Origin: Acetobacter estunensis
GTDB taxonomy: Bacteria > Pseudomonadota > Alphaproteobacteria > Acetobacterales > Acetobacteraceae
DNA length: 64,000 nt
Direction of reading: 5' to 3'
Assembly: GCF_011516945.1 (NCBI RefSeq)
Contig: NZ_WOTH01000001.1
Span: 62,001-126,000 of the forward strand
A program made the translations under genes and the position numbers. Below, in pieces: positions 16,997-50,559 of the stretch (position 1 is the stretch's first letter; the number at the start of each line of letters is the position of its first letter). The notes under the pieces are model-generated. The model ran no database searches, was not told where the DNA came from, and saw only the letters and a list, made by a program, of their open reading frames with translations.

Positions 16997-17844
16997 TCCG
17001 GGACGACCCATTGTACGGAGGTTTCCGTGTCTTCAGTGCCAAGATGTTGCCGCAGGACCGTCAGGACGGCGGCGGCCTCTTCGTCAAGCTGGAAAGGTGG
17101 GTTGGCGATGAGCAGACCGCAACCGTTCAGACGTGTGGGGTCGAGCGGTGGGCGCAATGTGAACTCGAGCGCGAGCAGCTTGCGCTGTCCGGCGTCTTTC
17201 AGCGTGTTGAAAAAGGTGCGGACGGGTGTGCGGTGTTTGATGGGATACCACACCGCCATGACGCCGGTGGGAAAGCGTTGACGGGCTGTGATGATGGCGT
17301 GACTGAGGGCGGCGAATTCGTCGCGCTGCTCGAAGGGTGGATCCATCAGGACGAGACCGCGCCGGGCGGTTTTTGGAGGCAGCAACGCGGTGATGGCTTC
17401 ATAACCGTCGCGGGCATGGACGGCGACAGCGGGATTGCGGCGGAACAGGCGCCGGAGGATGGGCTGGTCTTCCGGGTGACGTTCGCAGCAGGCCAGCGTG
17501 TCACCGGGCCGTAGCAGGCGGGCGATCAGTTCGGGGGAGCCGGGATAGAACAGCTTTCCGTCATGCTCGCTGATGACATCATGCACGATGCGAAGCCAGT
17601 CACGCAGGGGACTCAAAGCTGGGAGTTCGGGATTGAGGCCCAGAAGGCGGCCGATACCATCGCGCCATTCTCCAGTGGCCTGGGCTTCAGGTCCAGAGAG
17701 GTCATACAGGCCGATGCCGGCATGGGTGTCCAGCACGGAGATGGGTGTCTCCTTGCGGGTGAGCAGGCGCAGGAGAGTGACAAGCAGGGCATGCTTCATC
17801 ACATCTGCGAAGTTTCCGGCGTGGTAGGCGTGGCGGTAGTTCAT
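16993..17844 (-). CDS. rlmJ: 23S rRNA (adenine-2030-N6)-methyltransferase
   Basis: A 283-residue SAM-dependent methyltransferase that modifies A2030 of 23S rRNA. The start MNYRHAYHAGNFADVMKH is the RlmJ signature. VLDTHAGIGLYDL is the SAM-binding loop and LVLMDPPFEQ is the DPPF catalytic motif near residue 167. Length is typical (about 280). It is the first gene of a coupled rlmJ-gpsA unit. Its first 22 bp are the attachment site of the element to its right, so the coding sequence is intact but its native promoter has been displaced about 3.2 kb; the original upstream region now begins at 21050. Confidence 0.95.
   Translation of the reverse strand: MNYRHAYHAGNFADVMKHALLVTLLRLLTRKETPISVLDTHAGIGLYDLSGPEAQATGEWRDGIGRLLGLNPELPALSPLRDWLRIVHDVISEHDGKLFYPGSPELIARLLRPGDTLACCERHPEDQPILRRLFRRNPAVAVHARDGYEAITALLPPKTARRGLVLMDPPFEQRDEFAALSHAIITARQRFPTGVMAVWYPIKHRTPVRTFFNTLKDAGQRKLLALEFTLRPPLDPTRLNGCGLLIANPPFQLDEEAAAVLTVLRQHLGTEDTETSVQWVVPE
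17823..17844. repeat. Left attachment repeat (attL core), in rlmJ start
   Basis: These 22 bp are identical to 21028-21049 and comprise, on the minus strand, the ATG and the first six codons plus one base of rlmJ. The integrase gene starts 157 bp to the right. Insertion here kept the gene intact by rebuilding its start. Confidence 0.85.
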
Positions 17845-37441: not shown

Positions 37442-37484
37442 AACATCGTGTTCCCGGGTATCGGATTCGAAAATTTTGCCTCCC

Positions 37485-37943
37485 ATGAAGAAGAAGCGCC
37501 GGCCCCTGACGGATTCCGAATTTGATTCCCTGTGTGAATGTATCTCAGGAAATGGAAATATTTCTGAGTGTCTGCGGACAATTGGGGCGTCTTTGTCGTC
37601 TCTTTACTTCTATCTGAAGACAAATCCTGACGAAAGGGAACGGATCACGTTGGCGCGTGGTCTCTTTCATGACGATCTGACCTCATCGGTGCGGGATTTG
37701 GCTTTGTCTGGTGTGAAGAGTGTGTCCATTCGTAGAAAAAAGGGAGAAGGGAACGAGGAAATTGCGCCGAATGTGCTGTTGTTGCTGGCTGTTCTCAAAG
37801 AACACTCCAGTCGTCTGGCCCGCGATGAGAAGAACGATCTCGTGCGGGCGTTAAAGTCCACCGATCGTGGGCGAGGGGATGTCATGCGTGAGGAGATTCT
37901 GTCTGACGCGCCACCGGGTCGGATCGATATCGGGAAAAAATGA
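37485..37943 (+). CDS. Putative small terminase subunit
   Basis: A 152-residue protein directly upstream of the large terminase, which it overlaps by 4 bp (ATGA). The N-terminal half has a helix-turn-helix-like stretch ISECLRTIGASLSSLYFYLK with the small-terminase context TNPDERERITLARG. The C-terminal half is helical and charged. Position and HTH fit a DNA-recognising small terminase subunit, but the sequence is not distinctive enough to be certain. An in-frame TTG lies 9 bp upstream of the chosen ATG. Confidence 0.65.
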   Translation: MKKKRRPLTDSEFDSLCECISGNGNISECLRTIGASLSSLYFYLKTNPDERERITLARGLFHDDLTSSVRDLALSGVKSVSIRRKKGEGNEEIAPNVLLLLAVLKEHSSRLARDEKNDLVRALKSTDRGRGDVMREEILSDAPPGRIDIGKK

Positions 37944-39283
37944 CGGCTGGACGAAAGAATACAAGGGTATCTCTGACCAATCCGCAGATGACGATCTATC
38001 AGGCGGGTTGGAAGGAACAATCCCGTTTTCGTGTTGCGGTATGCGGACGACGATTCGGGAAGACGTTTGAAACGACAGAAGAAATAAGGCGTGCGGTTCG
38101 TCTTGCCGTGGAGCGCCGGATCTCCGTCGACAACGAGATCTGGTATGCGGCGCCCACCTTTCGCCAGGCGCGGAAGATATTCTGGCCAAAACTGAAAAAG
38201 TTTTTCCCACCATCATGGTTGTGGACAAAGCCACGTGAGTCCGATCTGTCCATGGAGGTGGGGCCATATCGACATGTGGTTCGGGTCGTAGGTCTTGAAA
38301 ATTATGATGCCTTACGAGGTTCGGGTCTGTTTTTCTTTGTGGGAGATGAATGGGCGGATACGCGCCCGGGTGTGTGGAACGAGGTTATTCGACCTATGCT
38401 TTCGACGGCACAGGGGCATGCGCTGTTCATTGGAACTCCAAAAGGGCGCGATCATTTTCATGAAATTTATGAAAAAGGTCAGGATGGACCGACACATGAG
38501 CGCGGATGGTGGTCATGCTCCTACACCACGATTGAAGGAGGGAATGTTTCTGAAGAGGAGATCGCGTCTGCGCGCAGTTCACTAGATCCACGGCAGTTTC
38601 GTCAGGAGTATGAAGCGTCTTTCGAAAGTTTCGCAGGTCAGTGCATTTACGCGTTTTCGCATTCTGGGTCTATTAAAGATCGAACCTATGATCCGGATAG
38701 TCCGGTTTTTATTGGGTTGGATTTCAACATCAATCCTATGTCTGCCACGGTCTGGCAGGAGCAGGAGACGCCAGAAGGAGAGACGATCACGTTCCAGATT
38801 GACGAGATCGTTCTTCCCACCTCCAACACGGATGAGATGGCGAAAGAGATTGTTGTGCGATACGGAATCAGGGCATCGGATTTTTCGGGTAATGCCACCG
38901 TACAGGCAGGACATATTTCGGTTTATCCAGATCCTTCCGGTGGGTGTCGACGCACGTCCTCTGGTGGAAATACGGATATTTCCATTCTGAAGTCCTATGG
39001 ATTGACGGTGGTAACCCGGCGAAAGGCACCTGCCGTGCGGGACCGGTTGAATTTTACAAATTCCATGTTCCTTACCTCATCGGGGAAGAGACGGGCATTT
39101 GTATCACCAAGGTGCACACAAAGCATCGAAAGCTATGAACGATACGCCTATCTCGTGAATTCTTCGGAGCCGGATAAAAGTGGAGGGTACGATCATCTGG
39201 TCGATGCGACCGGATACTACCTTTTCTTTCGTTTCGCATCCCAAGCCGTTGATGGCAGTCGTTTGAGATTTCTTGAGCGTTAG
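37940..39283 (+). CDS. terL: Phage large terminase subunit
   Basis: A 447-residue packaging motor ATPase and nuclease. Walker A-like VAVCGRRFGKTFETTEE lies near residues 33-49, Walker B with the catalytic acids in FFFVGDEWAD near 133-142, and a coupling motif in ALFIGTPKG. The RNase H-like nuclease domain begins near residue 255 with VFIGLDFNINPMSATVW (first Asp), and the C-terminal GGYDHLVDATGYYLFF supplies a further Asp. Length and layout fit headful phages of the contractile type. Start overlaps the small terminase stop. Confidence 0.92.
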   Translation: MTAGRKNTRVSLTNPQMTIYQAGWKEQSRFRVAVCGRRFGKTFETTEEIRRAVRLAVERRISVDNEIWYAAPTFRQARKIFWPKLKKFFPPSWLWTKPRESDLSMEVGPYRHVVRVVGLENYDALRGSGLFFFVGDEWADTRPGVWNEVIRPMLSTAQGHALFIGTPKGRDHFHEIYEKGQDGPTHERGWWSCSYTTIEGGNVSEEEIASARSSLDPRQFRQEYEASFESFAGQCIYAFSHSGSIKDRTYDPDSPVFIGLDFNINPMSATVWQEQETPEGETITFQIDEIVLPTSNTDEMAKEIVVRYGIRASDFSGNATVQAGHISVYPDPSGGCRRTSSGGNTDISILKSYGLTVVTRRKAPAVRDRLNFTNSMFLTSSGKRRAFVSPRCTQSIESYERYAYLVNSSEPDKSGGYDHLVDATGYYLFFRFASQAVDGSRLRFLER

Positions 39284-39306
39284 GCAATCTGAAAAGGTAG
39301 TAATCA

Positions 39307-40812
39307 TTGGACTGGAAGGAATTGAAGCGGAGCATGATGTTCCCGTCCCGGTATTCTCACCGGACACGCGAACTTCTGGCTCTTGAGCGTGTTCTTGACG
39401 GTACGCTGTACGATCATATCCATCATCCGTTTTTCAGAAGTTGCGACACGGATGGTACCTATATTCCCATAAACAGACGGCGTCCCTCGGTCAGGTCGAA
39501 TCTGTGTAATGTTGTTGTAGATGATTCGGTCTCTCTTCTGTTTGGAGCCTCGCATTGGCCATCGGTCACGGTCCATGGAGCAGATGAACAGGCCAATCAC
39601 CAGGCGGAAAACACGATCCGTCAGATTGTGAAAGCCATGCATCTGTCCTCTCTCATGGAGCAGGCGGCCGTCATGGGATCGGTTGGTTCTGTGGCGATTC
39701 TCGTGCAGGTGATTGAGAACGAACTCGTCATCGAGATCAAAAGAACCTGTTTTCTGGAACCGATATTTTCTTTGTTTGACGCCTCCAGACTGATCCGTGT
39801 TCGTGAGCAGTATATTGTTGATGCGGAAGGATTGAGACGGGCTGGTTTTGGCCAGTTTGAGGCCGGGAATTACTGGTTTACTCGTGATTTCACGGAACAG
39901 GAGACAATTTGGTACCAACCGATCCGCGTCGATGCCTGTGTCGGTATGCCGGATGACCTTGTGCGTGACGACGAGCGGTCTCTTGTGCATGGGTTGGGAG
40001 TGGTGCCGGTTGTATGGATCCGGAATCTTCCCGGAACGGACCCTGTATATCCAGAAGGGAAATGTACATTTGCCGCGGGTATCGATGCTATGATCGATGC
40101 TGATTATCTTTTGTCGCAGACGGTACGAGGGCTGAGATATTCCGCCGATCCGACGATGGTACTGTCGGTTGATGAATACATGATGCCGGGCGGAGGCATT
40201 CCTCCCATTACTAAGGATGCGTCGAACGCTATCGCTCTCCCACAGGGCGGCGAAGCCAAACTTCTTGAGATCAATGGAACAGGTGCGGCGGCGGCACTCA
40301 ACATGTGGGAATCTTTGCGGTCGCTTGCCCTTGAGGCCATGCATGGAAATCGTGCGCATGGCGACAAGGTTTCGGCAGGTCAGTCGGGACGTGCAATGGA
40401 GTTGATGTGCCTCGGTCTGACCTGGCTTACCGGACGGCTGCGACGGTCTTATGGAGAGTTCGGTCTGTTGTCAGTCATCAGACTTATTGCTCGTATCAGC
40501 CAGATTGTTCCGGAACTGACTATACGCGGCAAACAATATGGTCCCCTGGAGTTAGAGAATCTTTCACTGGTGTGGCCACCATGGTTTGAACCGACATTTG
40601 GGGACATGCAGACTATGGCCAATGCGGTACAGGCTGCCAGGTCTTCAGGTTCAGTGTCCGTTGATACGGCGGTCAGAATGATGCGGCCTGCAACGCATGT
40701 TCAGAATGTTGGTGAAGAAATCAACAAAATACAAAACGATTTTGAGTCGCACGATGCCCGTCTGTCTGCCCTGTCGGGCACAGTCGAGGACCGTGACATG
40801 ACTGAGGTTTGA
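39307..40812 (+). CDS. Phage portal protein, SPP1 gp6-like
   Basis: A 501-residue portal. It has the expected N-terminal wing, a central region RRPSVRSNLCNVVVDDSV and the helical part FAAGIDAMIDADYLLSQTVR, and ends with a helical crown. The start is a TTG behind AAAAGGTAG, or possibly the ATG pair at 39334. It directly precedes the scaffold gene (stop and next start TGAATG), as in many tailed phages. Twelve-fold ring function inferred from position and family. Confidence 0.8.
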   Translation: MDWKELKRSMMFPSRYSHRTRELLALERVLDGTLYDHIHHPFFRSCDTDGTYIPINRRRPSVRSNLCNVVVDDSVSLLFGASHWPSVTVHGADEQANHQAENTIRQIVKAMHLSSLMEQAAVMGSVGSVAILVQVIENELVIEIKRTCFLEPIFSLFDASRLIRVREQYIVDAEGLRRAGFGQFEAGNYWFTRDFTEQETIWYQPIRVDACVGMPDDLVRDDERSLVHGLGVVPVVWIRNLPGTDPVYPEGKCTFAAGIDAMIDADYLLSQTVRGLRYSADPTMVLSVDEYMMPGGGIPPITKDASNAIALPQGGEAKLLEINGTGAAAALNMWESLRSLALEAMHGNRAHGDKVSAGQSGRAMELMCLGLTWLTGRLRRSYGEFGLLSVIRLIARISQIVPELTIRGKQYGPLELENLSLVWPPWFEPTFGDMQTMANAVQAARSSGSVSVDTAVRMMRPATHVQNVGEEINKIQNDFESHDARLSALSGTVEDRDMTEV

Positions 40813-41413
40813 ATGGAAACCATGCATACATACGTGCGCTGTCCCGATGACGGATCCGGGAGCGCTCCGGCTCCGGAGGTCTCGGCGTCTTCTTCTGCCT
40901 CATCCGGTCTGCGATCAGCGGCTGACAGCGTAGCGGATGCTTTTTCGAACCAGCTGGCGCAGGCCCAGGCGGATCTGGTGGAAGCGCGGGCACGTGCGGC
41001 CGCTATTGAGGCGGAACTGACGCAAGTGCGTAATGAAGCCCAGACAACCGCCGAGGCCCGAGCGATGGAGATTGCCGGAGTTCGTAAGGATGCTGCCATT
41101 CGCACGGCGGCTGTTACTTCGGGACTCGTGGACATGGAATGTCTTCCGCTGCTCGATATCGCATCTATTTCTGTTGATGAAAGCGGCAATGTCTGTGGTG
41201 TTGAAGAGGCATTTGAAGAACTGAAAGAAAAAAAAGCCATTTCTTTTTTCTGGCGCCAAGGAAAACTCGACACGTGTCAGCGGGACAGCAAAGCTTGCCT
41301 CGGCTCCGCGTGCGAAAAGCGTGTCCTCGGGCTCTATTCGTGACCTTTCCGAAGGTGAATATCGCCAGTCATTGAAGAAGCTCGCGCCATCCTACGCGCG
41401 TCGCTACAATTAA
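40813..41413 (+). CDS. Phage scaffold-like protein with frame break
   Basis: The first frame from ATG 40813 encodes about 145 residues: a Ser-rich start, a coiled-coil region (FSNQLAQAQADLVEARARAA and following), and DMECLPLLDIASISVDESG, typical of head scaffolds. Near 41228-41249 an A8 run and a T6 run interrupt it. The continuing sequence in another frame, SGAKENSTRVSGTAKLASAP and ending SLKKLAPSYARRYN at 41413, is clearly the natural C-terminus. The uninterrupted frame instead ends at 41343 with an unrelated tail. A one-base indel in a homopolymer is the simplest reading; a programmed -2 or +1 shift cannot be excluded. Confidence 0.65.
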
Positions 41414-41425
41414 GGATATTCCTAC

Positions 41426-42793
41426 GTGACGATTGATAATTTTCCATCACAGCTTCAGCCTATCATTCAGCAGGGTTATCTGGCCCGTGAATTTTCTGCT
41501 GGTCTTCAATCCCGTATTGCCTTTCGTGCTATCGCGGATCGGGAAGTCTTTCCAAACCGTGTCGGTGAGACGATCACCAAGACGCGTAAAGGGCTGAAAT
41601 CTCCTGTGACGACGCCGATGAATCCGTCGCAGAATGTCAATTTCGACAATGGCCTTACGCCTTCGACGTGGAGTGTCGAACAGTACACACTGACCATCAA
41701 TCAGTATGGCGACACCATTGACCTGAACGTTGTCAGCGAAGGCGTCGGAATTGCCGATCAGTTCCTCGCTAATGCCAATACCAATGGTATTCAGGCTCTT
41801 CAGTCACTGGACCGGATTGCGCGTAATGCGCTGTTTGGCGGGGGTGTCGGTGGTGTGGGTGGTTACATGGGAGGTAATACCTGTGTCACTACAGCTCTCG
41901 GTTCGAGCAGTACGCAGGTGGCTGTGGATGATATCCGTGGTTTCGAAAGGCTGGTAAATTCGACCGGACAGGTTGTGTCGGTGGCGCAGTCCGCTGGCAT
42001 GACGGTGACCATCGGAAGCAATGCCTACACGCTTGTGTCGGTGACGGCGGATAGCGTGAACACGTCCACTGCTCCTCTGGGGCAGTCGGGGACATTGACG
42101 CTGTCCACCTCGGTATCAGTCAGTGATGGCGCAGCGGGCAGTCCGGTGGTCAGCTCCACGGCGCCGCTGGTTCTGCGTCCCAACAACCGTCTTACGACGG
42201 CCCAGCTTGTGGCGCCTACGGGCAACTATGGATCCAGCAACTATGTCACAGGTGACACGCTGGGCATCCAGACGGTTCTGGCAGCGGTTGCGGCTTTGCG
42301 TATGAACAATGTTCCGACAATCGATGGTGCTTATCACTGTTATCTGGACGATCAGCAGATGCTTGGTCTTTTCCGCGATGGAGACTTTAAATATCTCTAT
42401 CGAGGTGCCTACGGAAGCGATACCTATCGGGCAGGTTCCGTTGTGGAGCTTCTTGGTGTTCGTTTCATCCCGACGACGGAAGCACCTTTGCAGGCGTCCC
42501 TTGGGGCGGGAGTCATTCATCGTGCCATCGTTTGTGGTCAGGGCGCGTTGATCGAGGGCGATTACAGTGGTGCTCTTGAACTTCCTGATAGCGAGCGATC
42601 GCTGGTCGAGAACGTAGATGGTATCATGATGGTCACACGTGAGCCCCTGGATCGTCTGAAACAGATGATCGCTCAGTCGTGGTACTGGATCGGCGGTTTT
42701 GCACTGCCAACCGACGCAACCGTCAACCCGACAATTATTCCGACTTCGACCAACAGTTATCTTAAACGCGGTGTGGTTATCGAGAGTCTGTAA
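41426..42793 (+). CDS. Major capsid protein
   Basis: A 455-residue head protein, GTG start 12 bp after the scaffold stop. The N-terminal arm (MTIDNFPSQLQPIIQQGYLA) and P-domain-like segments FRAIADREVFPNRVGETITK and VPTIDGAYHCYLDDQQMLG indicate an HK97-fold capsid of the N4-gp56-like kind. Residues about 180-255 form a Ser/Thr/Val-rich insert (STSVSVSDGAAGSPVVSSTA), probably a surface insertion domain. No separate decoration or protease gene is seen in the module. Confidence 0.85.
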   Translation: MTIDNFPSQLQPIIQQGYLAREFSAGLQSRIAFRAIADREVFPNRVGETITKTRKGLKSPVTTPMNPSQNVNFDNGLTPSTWSVEQYTLTINQYGDTIDLNVVSEGVGIADQFLANANTNGIQALQSLDRIARNALFGGGVGGVGGYMGGNTCVTTALGSSSTQVAVDDIRGFERLVNSTGQVVSVAQSAGMTVTIGSNAYTLVSVTADSVNTSTAPLGQSGTLTLSTSVSVSDGAAGSPVVSSTAPLVLRPNNRLTTAQLVAPTGNYGSSNYVTGDTLGIQTVLAAVAALRMNNVPTIDGAYHCYLDDQQMLGLFRDGDFKYLYRGAYGSDTYRAGSVVELLGVRFIPTTEAPLQASLGAGVIHRAIVCGQGALIEGDYSGALELPDSERSLVENVDGIMMVTREPLDRLKQMIAQSWYWIGGFALPTDATVNPTIIPTSTNSYLKRGVVIESL

Positions 42794-42852
42794 CGTGGCA
42801 TGACCGGTGGTTCCTTGGTTATGGAATTACCGGTCATTGAAGGGATAGGGAC

Positions 42853-43248
42853 GTGAGCGACGTTGCGCCACAAACCGAACTGACGGCAGGCGAGAAAGTG
42901 GATATCCGGCGTTATTGCTGGTATCCACTTCTGGGAAATGGCCATGGTTTCGGTTTTTTTTGCGACTATTCAAACCGATGCTCGATTGAGTATCGAATGA
43001 ATACATTATCCTCTGAAGAAATTAACGTCGTGCGTCGTATGTTAACGACCCTTATGTCGTTGGAAACAGGGCCTGCAGCTTCGGCGTCCAATCTGGACAC
43101 CGACAAGGCATCGGTGTGGACACATAATAAGGACGAGGTTGCACAGAGAATTGGTCTGTTCAACCAGCAGAGATTTGAACTTGTTCGTTTTCTCGGGGTG
43201 CGTCCCGGTCCTGCCTGGCAATCAACGGATATCAGGCTCGTAGTCTGA
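42853..43248 (+). CDS. Phage connector-like protein
   Basis: A 131-residue protein in the head-tail connector position, between the capsid and the neck genes. The start is GTG after AGGGATAGGGAC. It is helical in its second half (SSEEINVVRRMLTTLMSLE, NKDEVAQRIGLFNQQRFELV) and ends in a short beta segment. No domain is recognised; the assignment rests on position and length. Its stop overlaps the start of the next gene by 1 bp. Confidence 0.6.
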   Translation: MSDVAPQTELTAGEKVDIRRYCWYPLLGNGHGFGFFCDYSNRCSIEYRMNTLSSEEINVVRRMLTTLMSLETGPAASASNLDTDKASVWTHNKDEVAQRIGLFNQQRFELVRFLGVRPGPAWQSTDIRLVV

Positions 43249-43925
43249 TGGACCTTTCTTTATTACAGCAAAAAATTTCATCCGGTCTGACTAAGGCTGC
43301 TTCGATCGCGGGCGTTCCTGTAATGCGGAAGCGGCCACAGGAAGCATTTGATCCTCTTGGAACGGGTGATTCAATTGCACTGAAAAGTCTGTTTGACATG
43401 TCAGCTTCTTTTCCAGGAACTTCACCTGATACATGGGGGCATGTCTCCCTCTTTGCCTCAGTGAATAGTGATATCTTGGTTGGAGATTATCTTCAGGTCA
43501 TCCCGGATTCTGATCTTCCTACTCTCCTGACCGATACCTATTTCGTGGCTCGTACAGAGCCTGCTCGGCCGTCTCTTGTGATCATGACAAATGCTGTCAT
43601 TTCTTTTTTGCAGTCAGATTCATCATTGGATGATGACGATTTCGGTTTGCGTGTACCTCAGGGTCCTGTCAGGAAAGATGACATTTCAGTGGCTACAGGT
43701 TGGCCTGCATCAATGTTGCGATCTGGTGGCGGAGGAAAGTCAACGACTGATCTGGGAACGGACGTCAGGGTGGCGGGATGGGAGATCCTTATGCCTGTGA
43801 TTCCAAGGGTGAGGATCCATGAAGGACTGCGTATGCAGGACGAACACAATAACTTTTTCCATGTGTGTTCCGTTGAGCAAACGCCTTTTGGTCTGCGTAT
43901 CGAAGTGACAGCGGATCAGACGTGA
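43248..43925 (+). CDS. Phage head-tail connector/neck protein
   Basis: A 225-residue protein with mixed alpha/beta composition. A helix at the start (LSLLQQKISSGLTKAASIAG) is followed by strand-rich parts (TWGHVSLFASVNSDILVGDY, VAGWEILMPVIPRVR) and a Gly-rich loop (RSGGGGKSTT). This looks like a small ring-forming tail protein. Overlaps the next gene by 4 bp. Exact role unknown. Confidence 0.6.
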   Translation: MDLSLLQQKISSGLTKAASIAGVPVMRKRPQEAFDPLGTGDSIALKSLFDMSASFPGTSPDTWGHVSLFASVNSDILVGDYLQVIPDSDLPTLLTDTYFVARTEPARPSLVIMTNAVISFLQSDSSLDDDDFGLRVPQGPVRKDDISVATGWPASMLRSGGGGKSTTDLGTDVRVAGWEILMPVIPRVRIHEGLRMQDEHNNFFHVCSVEQTPFGLRIEVTADQT

Positions 43926-45826
43926 TGACAATTGCTCAGGTTGAACAGCATCTGGCACAAGTCATCGCGGAACGGATTTATCCCCAGACCGATATTGGAT
44001 GCATGCGTTCCAGTATCGGTTTGGATGTCAAGGTGGCGCGTGGGGAACCTCAGCAGACGGAACTGCAAAAGGATTTGATGTCGCTCACGCCGGTAGGATG
44101 GATTGTCGTCAATCAGGCGGAAGGCCAAGTGACAGACAAGACACGCTATCGGCGTGACTGGCGGAAAGCCAAGAAGCAGTTTTGTTTTGGGCTGGAAGCC
44201 GTCAATGCACGCGATGGATTTTCCACCACGTTTGTGGGAACAGCACAAACTGATGGTGTGGCTGGTATCGAGATTGAGGGTATATCCTATCCCATTGAGG
44301 TGAAAAAAGGGCAGGGGGCCACTCTGGTAGCGCAGAAGATTTCTGCACTTGTGGCATCTATTGGGCGTTCGACCTGTACATGTATTGAATCGACGCTGAC
44401 GAGCACGACAGGAACCGTTCTCATTGGAAAAGCGTCTGGGCGTCTCCTCTTGCAACGGGAAACTGGCCGGTCAGATGTAAGTTTTATCATCTCCTTATAT
44501 GCACCCTCCATTTTTCATCGTGATTCCATGGAGAAAGCGGTGATGGATGCTGTTTTGGAATGTAATGATTTTTCGTTGGCCCAGGTTGATACGGGGAATT
44601 TTAGATTTTGTGGGCGTAAACTCAATAATGCCAACCTGAATGCCAATGTATATGGGCTTGAACTCGAATGGAGGGCAGAAATTGCTTTCAGCGAGGCGTT
44701 ACTTACCGTGCCGGTTATGTGGACGACTGGGGTGGTCAATGACGTCCTGACATTAGGTACCAAGGAAGGCTTGAATATCTCGGATCTACCTCCTATGGGA
44801 GCATTCCGACAGGACTTCTGGTATAATATGACACGTTCTGTGGACCAGCAATGCGCAACCGCTCTTTCTGATGCTCAGTGGTCTGATCGACTTCCTGTCA
44901 ATACACTGACGTCTCCTTCCGGGAGTGTGTCATGGCCTGTGGCGGATCAGGCGGTTATGGATGTAGAAATTACGTCGGCAGTGCAATGCGGCTTGTCATT
45001 CTGGATTTTCGATACAAAGTTCTGGTTGGATGGGAAGGGAGATGATTTCTCCCTTTATCTTTCCAGTGCACAAAAGAACGCATTGAAATTCGGTTTTCTT
45101 GTGCATTTTGAGCAGATTGTTGCCGGCCATCAACCTGAATACGAAATATATTTAAATGATCCAAGCCATTTCTTGTTTGGGGACGATCGTCCTCTTTTGT
45201 GTCTTGGTATGGAATCGATGGATATTTCGTTATCGGAAGTTAATATTGTAGCCGACTACATAAGAAAAATTCGAAAAGAAAGACTGTCTGAAAATTTGTC
45301 CAATCCTTATGTTCTTCTCGTGCCATCACCTGTCAGTGTTCAAAGTGAAGTAGAGCGCATGCGGAAAAAAGTTGGTGCGGACGCAATTGCAGCAGGAAAT
45401 ATTGCCCAACCGATCATAGAACCAACTCCTTATTCCGAGTTGGCAATAAGTGTAAAAAACGATTGGCAAGACAAAGAAAAAAGCGGTTCTCCTATAATTC
45501 CTGTGGCGATGATGGGATGGGACAGGCGACCATTGGCGGATGTTCCGCAAGCATTATTTCCACTCAGAGAGAATGAAAATAGAGATTCATTTTATGAGGA
45601 AAATATAGAGGCTTGCGCGGAACTTGTTCAGGATCTTCTGAATTTTTCCAGAAATTCTGGAAGCGTTTCGGCAAAAGTAGGTCTTATCAATGCATGGAAT
45701 GATTTTATCGAAGGTACATGGCTAGCGCCTACCCGTGGGGACACGGATATGGATGAAACGCGCGTGATGTGCGTTGCGCACAAGATCGAAGAAATCAAAG
45801 CTGCGGATATTTTTCCTGACGTATGA
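43922..45826 (+). CDS. Phage neck/tail protein fused to GH99/WbsX-like domain
   Basis: A 634-residue protein made of two parts. Residues 1-280 are phage-like (FSLAQVDTGNFRFCGRKLNN, LELEWRAEIAFSEALLTVPV), in tail-completion position just before the sheath. From about 295 the sequence resembles family 99-type glycosidases and WbsX-like domains: DAQWSDRLPV near 317, DVEITSAVQCGLSFWIFDTK, then IIPVAMMGWDRRPLAD, and LINAWNDFIEGTWLAP near 590-606, matching the AWNEW-EG end motif with Asp for Glu. The composition is more AT-rich than host genes. A glycan-acting domain on a neck or tail protein is inferred; catalytic residues were not confirmed. Confidence 0.65.
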   Translation: MMTIAQVEQHLAQVIAERIYPQTDIGCMRSSIGLDVKVARGEPQQTELQKDLMSLTPVGWIVVNQAEGQVTDKTRYRRDWRKAKKQFCFGLEAVNARDGFSTTFVGTAQTDGVAGIEIEGISYPIEVKKGQGATLVAQKISALVASIGRSTCTCIESTLTSTTGTVLIGKASGRLLLQRETGRSDVSFIISLYAPSIFHRDSMEKAVMDAVLECNDFSLAQVDTGNFRFCGRKLNNANLNANVYGLELEWRAEIAFSEALLTVPVMWTTGVVNDVLTLGTKEGLNISDLPPMGAFRQDFWYNMTRSVDQQCATALSDAQWSDRLPVNTLTSPSGSVSWPVADQAVMDVEITSAVQCGLSFWIFDTKFWLDGKGDDFSLYLSSAQKNALKFGFLVHFEQIVAGHQPEYEIYLNDPSHFLFGDDRPLLCLGMESMDISLSEVNIVADYIRKIRKERLSENLSNPYVLLVPSPVSVQSEVERMRKKVGADAIAAGNIAQPIIEPTPYSELAISVKNDWQDKEKSGSPIIPVAMMGWDRRPLADVPQALFPLRENENRDSFYEENIEACAELVQDLLNFSRNSGSVSAKVGLINAWNDFIEGTWLAPTRGDTDMDETRVMCVAHKIEEIKAADIFPDV

Positions 45827-45849
45827 TTTCATAACATCAAGGGCATAAA

Positions 45850-47415
45850 ATGGGTATCATTACTCAATCTGGAACGCTGAATACAGCTTCCCTCGTGGTT
45901 CCGGATCTCTATGTGCAGATCCAGACAAATGGTAGCACGTCACTTTCTGGAGCGCAGACAAATGTCATTGGCGTTGTGGGAACAGCGTCGTGGGGACCGG
46001 TAAATACACCTCTGGTTTTTGGTACGTCCGCTGAACGTATCGTGGCTTTCGGTCTCATGCAGACGAACCAGTTCGATCTGGCCACGGTCGTTTCCACAGC
46101 GATTTTGCAGGGAGCCTCCAGTTTCGTTGGTGTTCGCGTAACCGATGGTACGGATGCTGCTGCATCCGCGGCTCTGCTGGCCGATGAAAATGGTGCGACT
46201 TACCCTGTGTTGCTCTCTGCGCGTTATACGGGGACATCAGGTAACACCATTACGGCGGCGCTTTCGGCTGGCTCGGCGTTGAATACGTGGAAGCTTACGG
46301 TTTCCATGCCAAACAGTATTCCTGAGACGTTCGATAACATAGCGGTCGGAAGCGCCCCTGCTGATTTCTGGGCGGCTCTTGTGTCGGCTGTCAATAATGG
46401 TGTGTCAAACGCCCGTGGACCGAGCAATATCGTTGTGGCGGCTTTGGGTGCCGAAACGAGCGTGGCACCAACGGCAATAGCGAACATCACCCTCGTCAAT
46501 GGCAAGGATGGCAATACAGGGGTTGTCGCAGAAAATCTTGTGGGCACAGATGGTGTCACCCGTACGGGCATGTATGTCCTGCGCGGACAGGATTGCAGCA
46601 TTGGCGTGTTGAGTGGCGTAACGGACAGCTCCACATGGTCCGTGCAGGTGGCTTTTGGCGTGGCTGAAGGTCTTTATATGATTTCCGGCGGTCCGGCTGG
46701 GCAGGCGATTTCCGATGCACTCGCCAGCCGCACTAATGCGGGAGTGGACAGTTACGCCCTCAAGGTCATGTTTGGCGACTGGATATATTGGTATGATTCA
46801 GAAAATTCATTGACAAGATTGGTGTCACCAGCAGGTTTTGTCGCAGGTCGTCTTGCGTCTCTGTCGCCGCAACTGCCCAGTCTGAACAAGCAGCTTTATG
46901 GCATTGTCGGGAGTCAGAAGAGCGGTTTGACGAGTACGGGTCAGACTCTGACGTATTCGTCCTCTGAATTGTCTTCGCTTTTTGAGAACGGTTTCGACGT
47001 CATCAGCAATCCGGCTCCTGGAGGGAGTTACTGGACGGTGCGGGGTGGATTCAACTTTTCCAGCAATTCTGAAATTGATGGCGATGAATACACCCGTGTA
47101 AACAATTTCATTGCCCGTACGATTTCGGACGGTATGGGCATCTACATCGGTGAGCCGATTTCTCCCACCCTGTTCCGCAATATTGAAGCGACACTGACAG
47201 GTTTTTTGTCCGACCTGCAATCGCAAGGTGTGATTGGCACGGAAGATGGCAGCGTGGCCTATTCGGTTACGTGTTCATCATCGAACAATCCACAGTCCCG
47301 TGTGGCTCTTGGGTTTGTGCAGGCCGATGTCAGCGTGACCTATCTCGGCGTGAACAGGAAGTTCATCGTGAATATTGATGGAGGGGCCGACGTGACCGTG
47401 GCCAGCGCATCGTGA
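45850..47415 (+). CDS. Contractile tail sheath protein
   Basis: A 521-residue sheath subunit. The N-terminus GVVGTASWGPVNTPLVFGTS is the classic sheath start and GYxVGVRVTDG-like sequence follows. A large Ser/Thr-rich variable middle is typical. The C-terminal domain includes GGFNFSSNSEIDGDEYTRVN and FNxxARTISDGMG-like blocks, then strands for interaction with the tube (ADVSVTYLGVNRKFIVNIDGG). Its stop overlaps the tube start, GTGA. This defines the phage as a contractile-tailed myovirus type. Confidence 0.9.
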   Translation: MGIITQSGTLNTASLVVPDLYVQIQTNGSTSLSGAQTNVIGVVGTASWGPVNTPLVFGTSAERIVAFGLMQTNQFDLATVVSTAILQGASSFVGVRVTDGTDAAASAALLADENGATYPVLLSARYTGTSGNTITAALSAGSALNTWKLTVSMPNSIPETFDNIAVGSAPADFWAALVSAVNNGVSNARGPSNIVVAALGAETSVAPTAIANITLVNGKDGNTGVVAENLVGTDGVTRTGMYVLRGQDCSIGVLSGVTDSSTWSVQVAFGVAEGLYMISGGPAGQAISDALASRTNAGVDSYALKVMFGDWIYWYDSENSLTRLVSPAGFVAGRLASLSPQLPSLNKQLYGIVGSQKSGLTSTGQTLTYSSSELSSLFENGFDVISNPAPGGSYWTVRGGFNFSSNSEIDGDEYTRVNNFIARTISDGMGIYIGEPISPTLFRNIEATLTGFLSDLQSQGVIGTEDGSVAYSVTCSSSNNPQSRVALGFVQADVSVTYLGVNRKFIVNIDGGADVTVASAS

Positions 47416-47837
47416 CAACACCTTATACCCTTGGCCGTCAGGGCTCGATCATTCTTGTCTGGAATGGTACGCGTGTGGATTTGCAGGATGTAGTGGATTT
47501 TCACGCCCAGCAGGAAATCCATGTTCAGCGCGCCAATCCGCTGAATAAACCACCTATCGAATTCAACACGCCTGCGGGTTGGAGGGGCAGCTTCACTCTT
47601 GATCGCGCGAATGCCGCACTTGATACGCTGTTCAATGAGGACGAACTGGCATTTTGGAATACAAACACCATCTCTTCCGGTGTGCTTTATTGCTATATTG
47701 AAGAAAATGATGGGTCAACCTCAAAATTTGAGTATAGCGGTGTCACACTGGCGTTCACGAATGCGGGGAAATTCGATGCCAATAGCATCGTTTCGCAATC
47801 GGTGACCTTTTTCGCCAGTCAGAGGCGTGCCATCTGA
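47412..47837 (+). CDS. Tail tube protein
   Basis: A 141-residue beta-rich protein directly after the sheath. The region QQEIHVQRANPLNKPPIEFN followed by GWRGSFTLDRANAALDTLF, with LAFTNAGKFDANSIVSQSVT, has the strand pattern and length of contractile-phage tubes. Start is GTG within the sheath stop. Forms the rigid tube inside the sheath by position. Confidence 0.8.
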   Translation: MTTPYTLGRQGSIILVWNGTRVDLQDVVDFHAQQEIHVQRANPLNKPPIEFNTPAGWRGSFTLDRANAALDTLFNEDELAFWNTNTISSGVLYCYIEENDGSTSKFEYSGVTLAFTNAGKFDANSIVSQSVTFFASQRRAI

Positions 47838-48315
47838 TGAGCCAGGCTGGAAATGATACGGAAATTGTCACAGCGGAAGGACGGAAGCTGTCCTATCGTG
47901 AAATGAATCCGGGAGAGATCCTTGATTTTCTTCTGGCTTGTGGAAGTGAGGGAGCCCGCAACGAAGCGTATCTGAATGCGGCTCAGGCATGGTGCTCGGT
48001 GCGGGCCATCGATGGCATTCCTGTTCCTTTTCCTTCCAGCCGAAATGGCATCCGTGATCTGGTCAATCAGATCGGGGCGGATGGTATCGACGCCATTGAA
48101 CGGCATTTGCAGGTCGATGATGAAGATCAGGTCCACGACATAAAAAACTAGCAACCTCTCCATCCATGTGGACCATCATGATGCTTCTCAAGGCGAATGT
48201 TCCTTATGAAATCATCATGAAATGGGACTGGAAAACACGTGCCGCTGCTCTCGTGGTTGCCGGCACGATGGATGGAGGGGAGTTCTCATGGGAAAATCTC
48301 TGCTGGAGGGAGTGA
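47837..48315 (+). CDS. Tail assembly chaperone with -1 frameshift extension
   Basis: The zero-frame product is 104 residues (47837-48151), helical and acidic, with ...LVNQIGADGIDAIERHLQVD at its C-terminus. It ends ATA AAA AAC TAG. A -1 slip at A AAA AAC bypasses the stop and continues without interruption to 48315, adding 55 residues (LATSPSMWTIMMLLKANVPY and onward through WDWKTRAAALVVAG). The total is 159 residues. This is the arrangement of lambda G/GT and P2 E/E', where the long form recruits the tape measure protein. Position between tube and tape-measure slot fits. Confidence 0.8.
48142..48148 (+). promoter_or_regulatory. A AAA AAC slippery site
   Basis: The heptamer is in correct register (X XXY YYZ) and directly precedes the TAG stop of the chaperone. 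It is the same heptamer type known from efficient -1 frameshift sites. The downstream RNA structure was not calculated. Confidence 0.75.
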
Positions 48316-48350
48316 GCCTTCCTGCGGGAAGGTATGTGGAGTGATCGGAA

Positions 48351-49439
48351 ATGTTTCGGAGAAGGAGCGACAGCCACGCACAGCGGCGTGTGACCGGACG
48401 AAAAGGAAGTGTGGCTCGCGCTTCTGAGATTGGTCCAGGCGCGGCTCGCCTTATGCCCCGTTTTTTGCGGCGGGGGCAGAACCTTCATGATGAAATGGAA
48501 GGCAGAGTATCTGTCCTGCGTCGAGAAGCTTCTGTCTCGCCTGCGCCTTCAATGGATAGGTCGGTGCGTAATCATGCATCTTCACTGATTCTACGCACTG
48601 GTGTTCGTCGGATATCCTCGACTTCCGAAAGACCGTGGAGAGCAGAGGTTCGTGAACCAGAAAAAGTTTCTTTAATATCTAAACAGCGAGCACGGCAGAG
48701 TTTCTCTATTGCGTCTTTTGTTCACAGAGAGACACACGCGCGGCGTATGGAACATTTTCCTGTCCGTGCAATTGGTAATTTGAGACCTACGACTTTTTCA
48801 ACCGATCGCATGTTGCGTGCTCACATTCCACGTATATCAAAGACAAAAGGAGAAATTAAAGAACGCAATGGATTCGTCATCACTCCGAGGGTGTCAATTT
48901 CACGCACGATCAGAACACCTTCGAGTATGATTCCCTCTGAGAAAAACAAGCAAAGTTATATTCTCCGTCCTCATCAGAATCCGTCTCGAAGAGCCTCGAT
49001 AGAAGCACGATTTATTCGCAAATCCATACCGAATGGAGGCATGGACAGCGTTATGAGACATGGTCGGAAACAGAAGGATGCACTTTTGCGGAGTTTTGGA
49101 GAACGCACGAACTCGCATGAGAGCACGATGCCTCATTTTGGTGGAACGTCTCGTCCGGATGCGCCGTCTCACTCTTCCCCGTTTTCGTCAAGTTCCCCAC
49201 GCCAGAACGGTCTTGCCGCAGCGGCGCGCTCGCCTTCACCTTTCATGCCGAAAAAAAACGGTGATCTATCGTCTTCTCGAAGTTCGGAACACGGACAAAC
49301 CATGAAAGACCATCAACCTCATGCTGATCTACGCCGCATGATGATGACTGAACTTCAGGGTATTCTCTCGGCACCTCCCACAATGTCACCGCTGTCGTGG
49401 GTGCAGGCAACTCCCAGCTATCCGGGGTTTCATATCTGA
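48351..49439 (+). CDS. Arg/Ser-rich protein in tape-measure position
   Basis: A 362-residue frame between chaperone and gpU-like gene, where a tape measure protein would stand. The sequence is extremely rich in Arg, Ser and Pro (for example RRISSTSERPWRAEVREPE and SHSSPFSSSSPRQNGLAAAA), has no clear hydrophobic helix and is short for a tape measure. It may be a truncated or unusual tape measure, or a DNA-binding or disordered structural protein. The start is ATG after GGAGTGATCGGAA. The C-terminal 14 codons are next to the overlapping gpU-like gene. Existence as a real gene is likely from position and continuous frame. Confidence 0.55.
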   Translation: MFRRRSDSHAQRRVTGRKGSVARASEIGPGAARLMPRFLRRGQNLHDEMEGRVSVLRREASVSPAPSMDRSVRNHASSLILRTGVRRISSTSERPWRAEVREPEKVSLISKQRARQSFSIASFVHRETHARRMEHFPVRAIGNLRPTTFSTDRMLRAHIPRISKTKGEIKERNGFVITPRVSISRTIRTPSSMIPSEKNKQSYILRPHQNPSRRASIEARFIRKSIPNGGMDSVMRHGRKQKDALLRSFGERTNSHESTMPHFGGTSRPDAPSHSSPFSSSSPRQNGLAAAARSPSPFMPKKNGDLSSSRSSEHGQTMKDHQPHADLRRMMMTELQGILSAPPTMSPLSWVQATPSYPGFHI

Positions 49440-50356
49440 TGAGTCTTCTGGGTGTTGTTGGAGCGATCGGGGCGGCTCTGGGAAGTCAGGCCTTTCGTCT
49501 GGGAAATGTCGTATTTCTTGATACCGAGGTGCCGTCCGCGCTCAGTTGGGGTGGCTATCAGGCAACCTCGACGTTTTTTCAGCCGGGTGGTGGAAAAGTT
49601 GTCGTTCTTGGGGGGTATTTCGATGAACCCCTCGTCTGGAACGGCATATTCCGGGGCAGCACTGCGCTTGCGCGTGCCCGCACGCTCGATGCCATGGCGC
49701 GCAGTGGCTCCGAATGGGTCTTTTCGGGAGGAGGAGTCGTTCGGCAGGTGGTCATAACCGCTTTCGAAGCGGCTTATACGGAAAACGGAACGGTCATTCC
49801 TTATCAGATTGCCTGTGAGGTGATACCGCAGGCGGCAAATACGCTTTCGTCCACGCGCTCGGTTCTCACCAGTCTGATCGGGACACAGGCGACGAATGCG
49901 CTGGGGGCCATATCGGGCACATTTACAAGTCTTTCGTCGTATGTCTCGGCAGCATCATCGTCACTTTCGTCCTATGCGGGTGAGATTACACCGCTGGCGA
50001 ACCTCTTTGGGAGTGGCGGGAGCGTGTCCAGCCTGTCTGCCACTCTCTCTGGGATTTCGACGCAGGCGAACGCGCTTTCGTCGTTGAGCAGTAACGCGAC
50101 GCTTACGACACTGGGAAGCAGCATCACGGACGCGGGGACGTCCGTTTCGTCCCTGTCGGCAACCTCGGAAACTGAACTGGCGTCCATTGCGGCCAATGCG
50201 AACGGCAATATCGTTTCAGACGGCTCATCTCTGATTGCCGCCATCTGCCATTCCGCCACATCATCCTCTTCGTCTCTGGCAGGATCTTATTTGAATCAGG
50301 CTAATGGCACGATCGAAACCATTACGGGAAATTCCATTCAGAGCGCACAACCATGA
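49439..50356 (+). CDS. gpU-like tail protein
   Basis: A 305-residue protein, start ATG 49439 overlapping the previous stop by 1 bp (TGATG). The N-terminal third resembles P2 gpU-type baseplate/tail proteins: ALSWGGYQATSTFFQPGGGK, VVVLGGYFDEPLVWNGIFRG, ARARTLDAMARSGSEWVFSG. The C-terminal two thirds are Ser/Thr/Ala-rich with LSSLSSNATLTTLG-like repeats, longer than usual gpU. It precedes the LysM protein, as U and X are neighbours in P2-like tails. A longer frame from 49397 is less likely. Confidence 0.7.
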   Translation: MSLLGVVGAIGAALGSQAFRLGNVVFLDTEVPSALSWGGYQATSTFFQPGGGKVVVLGGYFDEPLVWNGIFRGSTALARARTLDAMARSGSEWVFSGGGVVRQVVITAFEAAYTENGTVIPYQIACEVIPQAANTLSSTRSVLTSLIGTQATNALGAISGTFTSLSSYVSAASSSLSSYAGEITPLANLFGSGGSVSSLSATLSGISTQANALSSLSSNATLTTLGSSITDAGTSVSSLSATSETELASIAANANGNIVSDGSSLIAAICHSATSSSSSLAGSYLNQANGTIETITGNSIQSAQP

Positions 50357-50559
50357 CAAATGTATATGAAAGCCAGACCATTACCGTGAGCCCCGCGGAT
50401 ATTTCCCTGTGGCATGTGGCCGCGAAATATCTTGGTGACGCGACGCAGGCCAATCGCATCATGGATGTGAACGGCCTGTCCGAGACATGGGTGACGGGGA
50501 CGCTCACCCTGCAATTACCCCCTTATGACAGCAGTCAGACGGGCGGTCTCAGTACCTGA
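50353..50559 (+). CDS. Tail protein X, LysM-like
   Basis: A 68-residue protein with the compact LysM fold, starting MTNVYESQTITVSPADISLW and having YLGDATQANRIMDVNGLSE in the middle. In P2-like phages gpX joins the hub to the tail. It overlaps the gpU-like stop by 4 bp and is the last phage gene. A hub (gpD) would be expected next, but the sequence goes straight into the hairpin and the TonB receptor gene. Confidence 0.8.
   Translation: MTNVYESQTITVSPADISLWHVAAKYLGDATQANRIMDVNGLSETWVTGTLTLQLPPYDSSQTGGLST

Follow-up and report, generated by a model that had tools for sequence, protein, structure and literature searches.

The stretch of DNA analysed here, the window, comprises 64,000 nucleotides from Acetobacter estunensis and contains, within a cluster of tail genes, an ORF of 104 codons (47837-48151) that ends in ATA AAA AAC TAG (48140-48151). 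The question that this locus raises is whether some ribosomes leave the zero frame at the end of this ORF and continue in the overlapping -1 frame, joining two open frames into one protein. The initial annotation, made from the letters alone, had proposed such a shift, and its reading of the frames holds on inspection: A AAA AAC is an in-register heptamer that adjoins the zero-frame TAG, and the -1 frame, counted from 48148, is open for 55 codons up to the TGA at 48313-48315, which predicts a long form of 159 residues (104 + 55). The features on which the argument turns are the following:

45850-47415, + strand: tail sheath gene (phrog_23, E 3.9e-43)
47412-47837, + strand: probable major tail tube gene, from its position after the sheath gene (phrog_12993, a family with no assigned function)
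47837-48151, + strand: zero-frame ORF, proposed short form of the tail assembly chaperone, 104 aa (ORF reading, phrog_20383, AF2 model)
48142-48148, + strand: slippery heptamer A AAA AAC, abutting the zero-frame TAG (sequence; conservation)
48148-48315, + strand: T domain in the -1 frame, 55 codons plus TGA, predicted C-terminal part of the 159-residue form (profile; AF2 model with mean pLDDT 80)
48149-48154, + strand: 6-nt spacer TAGCAA, including the zero-frame stop at 48149-48151 (sequence)
48155-48165, + strand: putative stimulatory stem, 5' arm CCTCTCCATCC, with 2 further pairs, to 48167, in the window copy (folding, covariation)
48270-48280, + strand: putative stimulatory stem, 3' arm GGATGGAGGGG, which follows the 5' arm by 104 nt (folding, covariation)
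48351-49439, + strand: ORF of 362 aa in the tape-measure position, its identity suggested by that position

The evidence points to a programmed -1 frameshift in a tail assembly chaperone gene, a mechanism of a known kind that is accompanied here by an unusual conserved stem; we put the probability of this reading at about 0.9. Most ribosomes would read the zero frame and stop at the TAG at 48149, giving the 104-residue form. A minority, with AAA and AAC in the P and A sites, would slip back by one base, re-pair on A AAA AAC and would go on through the 55 codons of the -1 frame to give the 159-residue form, which would carry the T domain at its C-terminus. The 5' arm of the stem begins 6 nt past the heptamer, which would place it where the mRNA enters a ribosome that has paused over the slip site; there the stem, whose structure is supported by folding, codon shuffles and covariation, probably acts as a stimulator of the slip. 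If lambda G/GT is a guide, the role of the short form may be to coat the tape measure protein and that of the T domain to recruit the tube subunits.

Taken alone, the motif proves little, since an in-register slippery heptamer with a -1 extension occurs at 4 of the 241 ORF ends in the window, counted on both strands for frames open over 100 codons or more, many of which are not real genes, with the heptamer within the last 12 codons and an extension of at least 40 codons. What lifts the chaperone site above chance is the conservation of the heptamer in relatives together with a skewed choice of synonymous codons at the site. Another ORF end, near 17279, carries G GGA AAG 3 bases before its stop and a -1 extension of 77 codons.

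With regard to the relatives, when the short-form protein alone served as the query, 25 of 100 relative genomes gave a match. A profile built from 18 sequences (A1) matched 161 of 397 genomes of the family and only 3 of 385 at class level, two of which also belong to the Acetobacteraceae, so that the short-form family is essentially confined to this family. The loci compared are a sample: 30 came with the family profile search, 80 more were fetched from the places that it listed, and the remainder derive from the first single-protein search and from the Komagataeibacter phage phiKX1. Nine loci were skipped (L001-L005 and L007-L010; seven repeats under other identifiers and two spurious matches) and L034 and L035 gave no profile match. 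The 139 loci with a chaperone match were reduced to 132 once identical ones had been removed. According to a T-domain profile, the T domain lies in the -1 frame in 130 of these distinct loci and in the +1 frame in 2.

The initial annotation had made its proposal depend on the survival of the heptamer in relatives, and a canonical in-register heptamer is indeed kept in 129 of the 132, nearly all of them Acetobacteraceae, so that both marks of a G/GT-type gene, a conserved T ORF in a shifted overlapping frame and a heptamer in register, are present across the sample. These relatives are not independent, with 94 distinct T N-termini among the 129. The heptamers are A AAA AAC (76), G GGA AAC (50), A AAA AAT (2) and A AAA AAA (1), and they abut the zero-frame stop in 117 cases, precede it by 18 nt in 10 and by 39 nt in 2. 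Three loci were set aside from this count. L121 has no heptamer; L054 keeps the heptamer and the hairpin arms and loses the frame of its T domain further on, perhaps through an indel; and L040, a divergent relative also devoid of a heptamer, has its T domain in the +1/-2 frame. In L040 an ATG in the T frame of the overlap is preceded by GGAG, and its T domain could possibly be reached by an independent start or by another kind of shift.

The codon choice at the slip site is strongly biased. Glycine at the first slip codon is encoded by GGA in 50 of 50 cases, as against 47 of 353 (13%) elsewhere in the same ORFs, and lysine at the slip site by AAA in 79 of 79, as against 130 of 293 elsewhere; the third position of the first slip codon is constrained by coding in the zero frame alone. 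The A-site codon is AAC in 126 relatives, AAT in 2 and AAA in 1, and it is never AAG. The genome of the window encodes tRNA-Lys with the anticodons TTT and CTT and tRNA-Asn with GTT, and the presence of the CUU-anticodon tRNA may make AAG a poor slip codon. In E. coli, A AAA AAC is less prone to shifting than A AAA AAG (PMC5009743). Given the UUU and CUU forms of tRNA-Lys in the host, the choice of AAC and the complete absence of AAG at the A site invite an explanation in terms of decoding.

The initial annotation had also suggested a fold calculation for the RNA downstream of the slip site. A structure exists there, and in the window it is seen only if more than 110 nt are folded. The segment 48153-48290 folds at -55.4 kcal/mol (z -4.86, with none of 200 shuffles as low), pairing 48155-48167 with 48268-48280. 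In the window, folding just the 42-92 nt that follow the heptamer gives nothing significant (z 0.26, 0.77 and -1.37), so the stem needs its distal arm. With a 6-nt spacer followed by a stem that is seen in both folding and covariation, the window has the layout of a bipartite -1 PRF signal; across relatives the stem starts 5-7 nt after the heptamer, and the usual spacer between heptamer and structure is 5-9 nt (PMC7618472).

The relatives fall into two clades with respect to this structure. The long-range stem, with its 3' arm some 104 nt downstream, is that of clade A (15 loci, the kind found in the window). In the 114 loci of clade B the pairing is local, a hairpin of GGCACCCC/GGGGUGCC whose distance from the heptamer is about that of the 5' arm in clade A. 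Compared with codon-sampled controls that preserve the -1 protein, z falls below -1 in 15 of 15 clade A loci (mean -2.32) and in 112 of 114 clade B loci (mean -2.88). Unconstrained RNAalifold recovers the pairing of columns 8-17 with 122-131 in clade A and of columns 8-15 with 47-54 in clade B, the latter in an alignment (A3) of 112 of the 114 sites from which L038 and L039, with the heptamer 39 nt before the stop, were omitted. In these alignments 97.0% of the cells of the clade A stem are paired, as against at most 66.1% when it is slid, and 93.4% of those of the clade B hairpin, as against at most 50.6%.

Furthermore, two pairs of the clade A stem join third codon positions of both arms and change together, with mismatches in none of 30 cells. 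Codon 5 pairs with an Asp codon as A:T in 9 loci, G:C in 5 and G:T in 1, and codon 4 with the first Gly codon as T:A in 10, C:G in 3 and T:G in 2, so that compensatory synonymous changes such as CCA:GAT to CCG:GAC and TCT:GGA to TCC:GGG are found; the two pairs account for 4 and 5 changes on the tree of the zero-frame protein. Most pairs of the clade B hairpin core show no covariation, the core being highly conserved. In clade B, Gly17 is GGG in 108 of 114 loci, as against 68 of 305 in the rest of the T ORFs, and Val18 is GTG in 114 of 114, as against 135 of 342. A search of Rfam gave nothing near the gathering scores. A terminator was considered and rejected, as the + strand has no terminator-like site and the single weak match on the minus strand compares with 0.8 expected.

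The initial annotation had called the -1 extension a plausible part of a chaperone, and its conservation as a protein agrees with this. The T frame is under purifying selection, with a mean dN of 0.168 and a mean dS of 0.95 over the 25 unsaturated pairs of the 78 in the Acetobacter clade, and searches of Pfam and PHROGs with the T domain gave no match. The MFS row of the dN/dS table (7.83) was discarded because its slice was out of frame. The short form matches phrog_20383 (E 3.5e-14), a PHROG of unknown function, and has no match in Pfam. Its AF2 model, from an alignment of five sequences, has a mean pLDDT of 79.4, the five models ranging from 47 to 79. In the fold comparison no solved chain reached Z 5; among the three closest are YqbN, a skin-element chaperone (3klu; Z 4.6, rmsd 3.7, 82 residues aligned), and gp13, the tail assembly chaperone of HK97 (2ob9; Z 3.8, rmsd 4.4, 89 aligned), both with weak scores. 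In BFVD the top match is an unnamed phage protein (E 7.1e-6), and a named chaperone appears only at E 0.019.

The gene order also gives some support to a role as chaperone, with the sheath and probable tube genes upstream and, in phiKX1, a tape measure profile (phrog_28, E 1.3e-6) downstream after one gene. In the window, the ORF at 48351-49439 has no profile match, tape measure profiles included, and only 24-59 C-terminal residues of it align in six relatives. This ORF evolves fast, with a dN/dS of 0.62 and 12 gapped bases between the window and A. estunensis.

Frameshifting in tail chaperone genes is established (PMC5009743, PMC10885494, PMC3711429) and has been measured at 6 and 7% for two such genes (PMC3711429). 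In lambda G/GT, where the slip site is G GGA AAG, a short chaperone and a -1 T domain likewise lie among the tail genes (PMC5009743, PMC7618472). The locus described here differs from it in using A AAA AAC or G GGA AAC, mostly abutting the stop, and in having a contractile-tail cluster, a conserved downstream stem and two parts neither of which matches Pfam. Both of these heptamers have been reported at the counterpart genes of archaeal siphoviruses (PMC5009743). In that case, however, the hosts are archaeal and the tails are of the siphovirus type. The signals of IS1, whose slip site is A AAA AAC, and of the IS3 family are also bacterial -1 sites with downstream RNA. In signals of the IS3411 type the second element lies 44-104 nt further on (PMC5009743), but there the contact is an apical-loop/internal-loop interaction, whereas here it is a plain long-range stem that closes most of the -1 ORF.

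With regard to tail genes, the one stimulatory structure met in the literature searched is that of corynephage phi16, where a slip site and an H-type pseudoknot are predicted in the tail assembly genes (PMC5506516); it is a single-genome prediction with another slip sequence, for which the accessible text of that paper gives no comparative support, whereas here some 130 homologous sites provide comparative evidence. The closest described phages are phiKX1 and phiKX2 of Komagataeibacter, direct relatives with the same gene order and a chaperone that is 41% identical, and phiKX1 carries the heptamer and the clade B hairpin. The parts are annotated there as hypothetical proteins, and since the phiKX1 record lists the two as separate entries, the suspicion of the initial annotation that pipelines would miss the long form fits this case. 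A word search of the paper on these phages (PMC8566455) returned none of the terms 'frameshift', 'slippery' or 'chaperone', and in the literature located by our search, as far as its accessible text goes, neither the stem nor the slip sites described here were met in connection with acetic acid bacteria.

Other explanations of the joined frames have to be weighed. The T ORF could be a separate gene, on which ribosomes initiate independently or reinitiate after terminating at the TAG, with the heptamer incidental. The two ORFs abut, the window has an ATG in the T frame at 48166, the annotators of phiKX1 placed a start there, and L040 has its T domain in another frame with no heptamer. However, an SD-like 4-mer before an ATG or GTG of the T frame was found in 0 of the 129 relatives, for which reason an own start was rejected, and 72 of the 129 have no ATG or GTG at all in the T start region. 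Codon 7, the ATG of the window, is Met in only 3 of 26 T sequences, and the synonymous choice that maintains the heptamer also speaks against an incidental motif, which makes a separate gene very improbable. Slippage of the RNA polymerase on the A6 run, rather than of the ribosome, would be another source of the -1 event, and the six-A run before the C and the stop is what suggests it, slippage at A/T runs being known in bacteria. Runs of six are, however, short for RNA polymerase slippage, and in 50 of the 129 relatives the same place is taken by G GGA AAC, a heptamer free of long homopolymer runs, with the same hairpin; a stem about 6 nt downstream, moreover, suits ribosomal frameshifting. 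Transcriptional slippage thus seems scarcely credible as the source of the shift.

More weight has to be given to the possibility that the frameshift is real and the stem is not its stimulator. It would then be a by-product of coding, or serve mRNA stability or the translation of the next gene, and stems can protect mRNA. Against this, the codon-sampled controls lose most of the stability although they preserve the protein, the + strand carries no terminator-like site, and in the loci with the stop 18 nt further on the distance of the hairpin is fixed to the heptamer and not to the stop; a role of the stem other than stimulation is accordingly held to be unlikely. It is also rather improbable that the window copy belongs to a dying prophage remnant in which the site has no present use. 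The module stops at a TonB receptor gene without baseplate genes, and the T frame has a dN/dS of 0.53 between the window and A. estunensis, a value that rests on only 3 changes. The neighbouring structural genes are nevertheless strongly constrained (0.02 for the tube and 0.06 for the sheath, between the window and A. estunensis AV380), both genomes share the same junction, and the baseplate genes that the module lacks occur as open frames at another place in the genome.

A programmed frameshift remains the preferred reading, and the question follows of what the surrounding module is. The head-tail module spans 37476-50559. A block of five baseplate genes (hub, spike, W, J and I-like), identified by homology to A. 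musti baseplate proteins, lies on a different contig of the same genome (G000:C16:22241-25395; L185 8220-11988). Where both modules are on one contig, they are separated by about 167 kb (G012), 108 kb (G017) and 148 kb (G032), and in A. musti they are contiguous. GTAs are mostly inherited vertically; here, one of the two host flanks is conserved across the 5 sister genomes in the comparison, and the junction is common to the window and A. estunensis. In keeping with a GTA, the module genes are endogenized in the host genome at separate loci, which, together with the purifying selection on the structural genes and the split TerL described below, suggests a domesticated, possibly GTA-like particle; GTA particles carry random host DNA (PMC9662315).

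In five sister Acetobacter genomes, TerL consists of two overlapping frames in a -1 relation that meet at T10-TAG, a conserved run of ten T with the AG of the TAG stop coming straight after it (L188 near 5375, L194 near 3446, and L186, L192 and L193 on the minus strand). Both parts are strongly constrained (0.05-0.10 for pairs with finite dS), so TerL in these genomes is likely to be made by ribosomal or transcriptional recoding. For the window such recoding was rejected, its TerL being one intact frame. A wider proposal, which we advance tentatively and at somewhat less than even odds, would bring these observations together: the frameshift may serve a host-domesticated, two-locus, contractile GTA-like particle of Acetobacter, its stimulator may have switched between a local hairpin and a stem of about 104 nt with the 5' arm kept by the slip site, and the TerL of one sublineage may have become recoded at T10. 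In this split and selected element, industrial acetic acid bacteria have a candidate for a domesticated particle.

Upstream of the sheath gene, the window also contains an ORF of 634 residues (43922-45826). Over its C-terminal part it matches a WbsX-like glycosyltransferase weakly, at an E of 0.008 that falls below the cut-off. Conservation across the five sister genomes in the comparison extends over the first 280 or so residues, and the remainder aligns in only one of the five.
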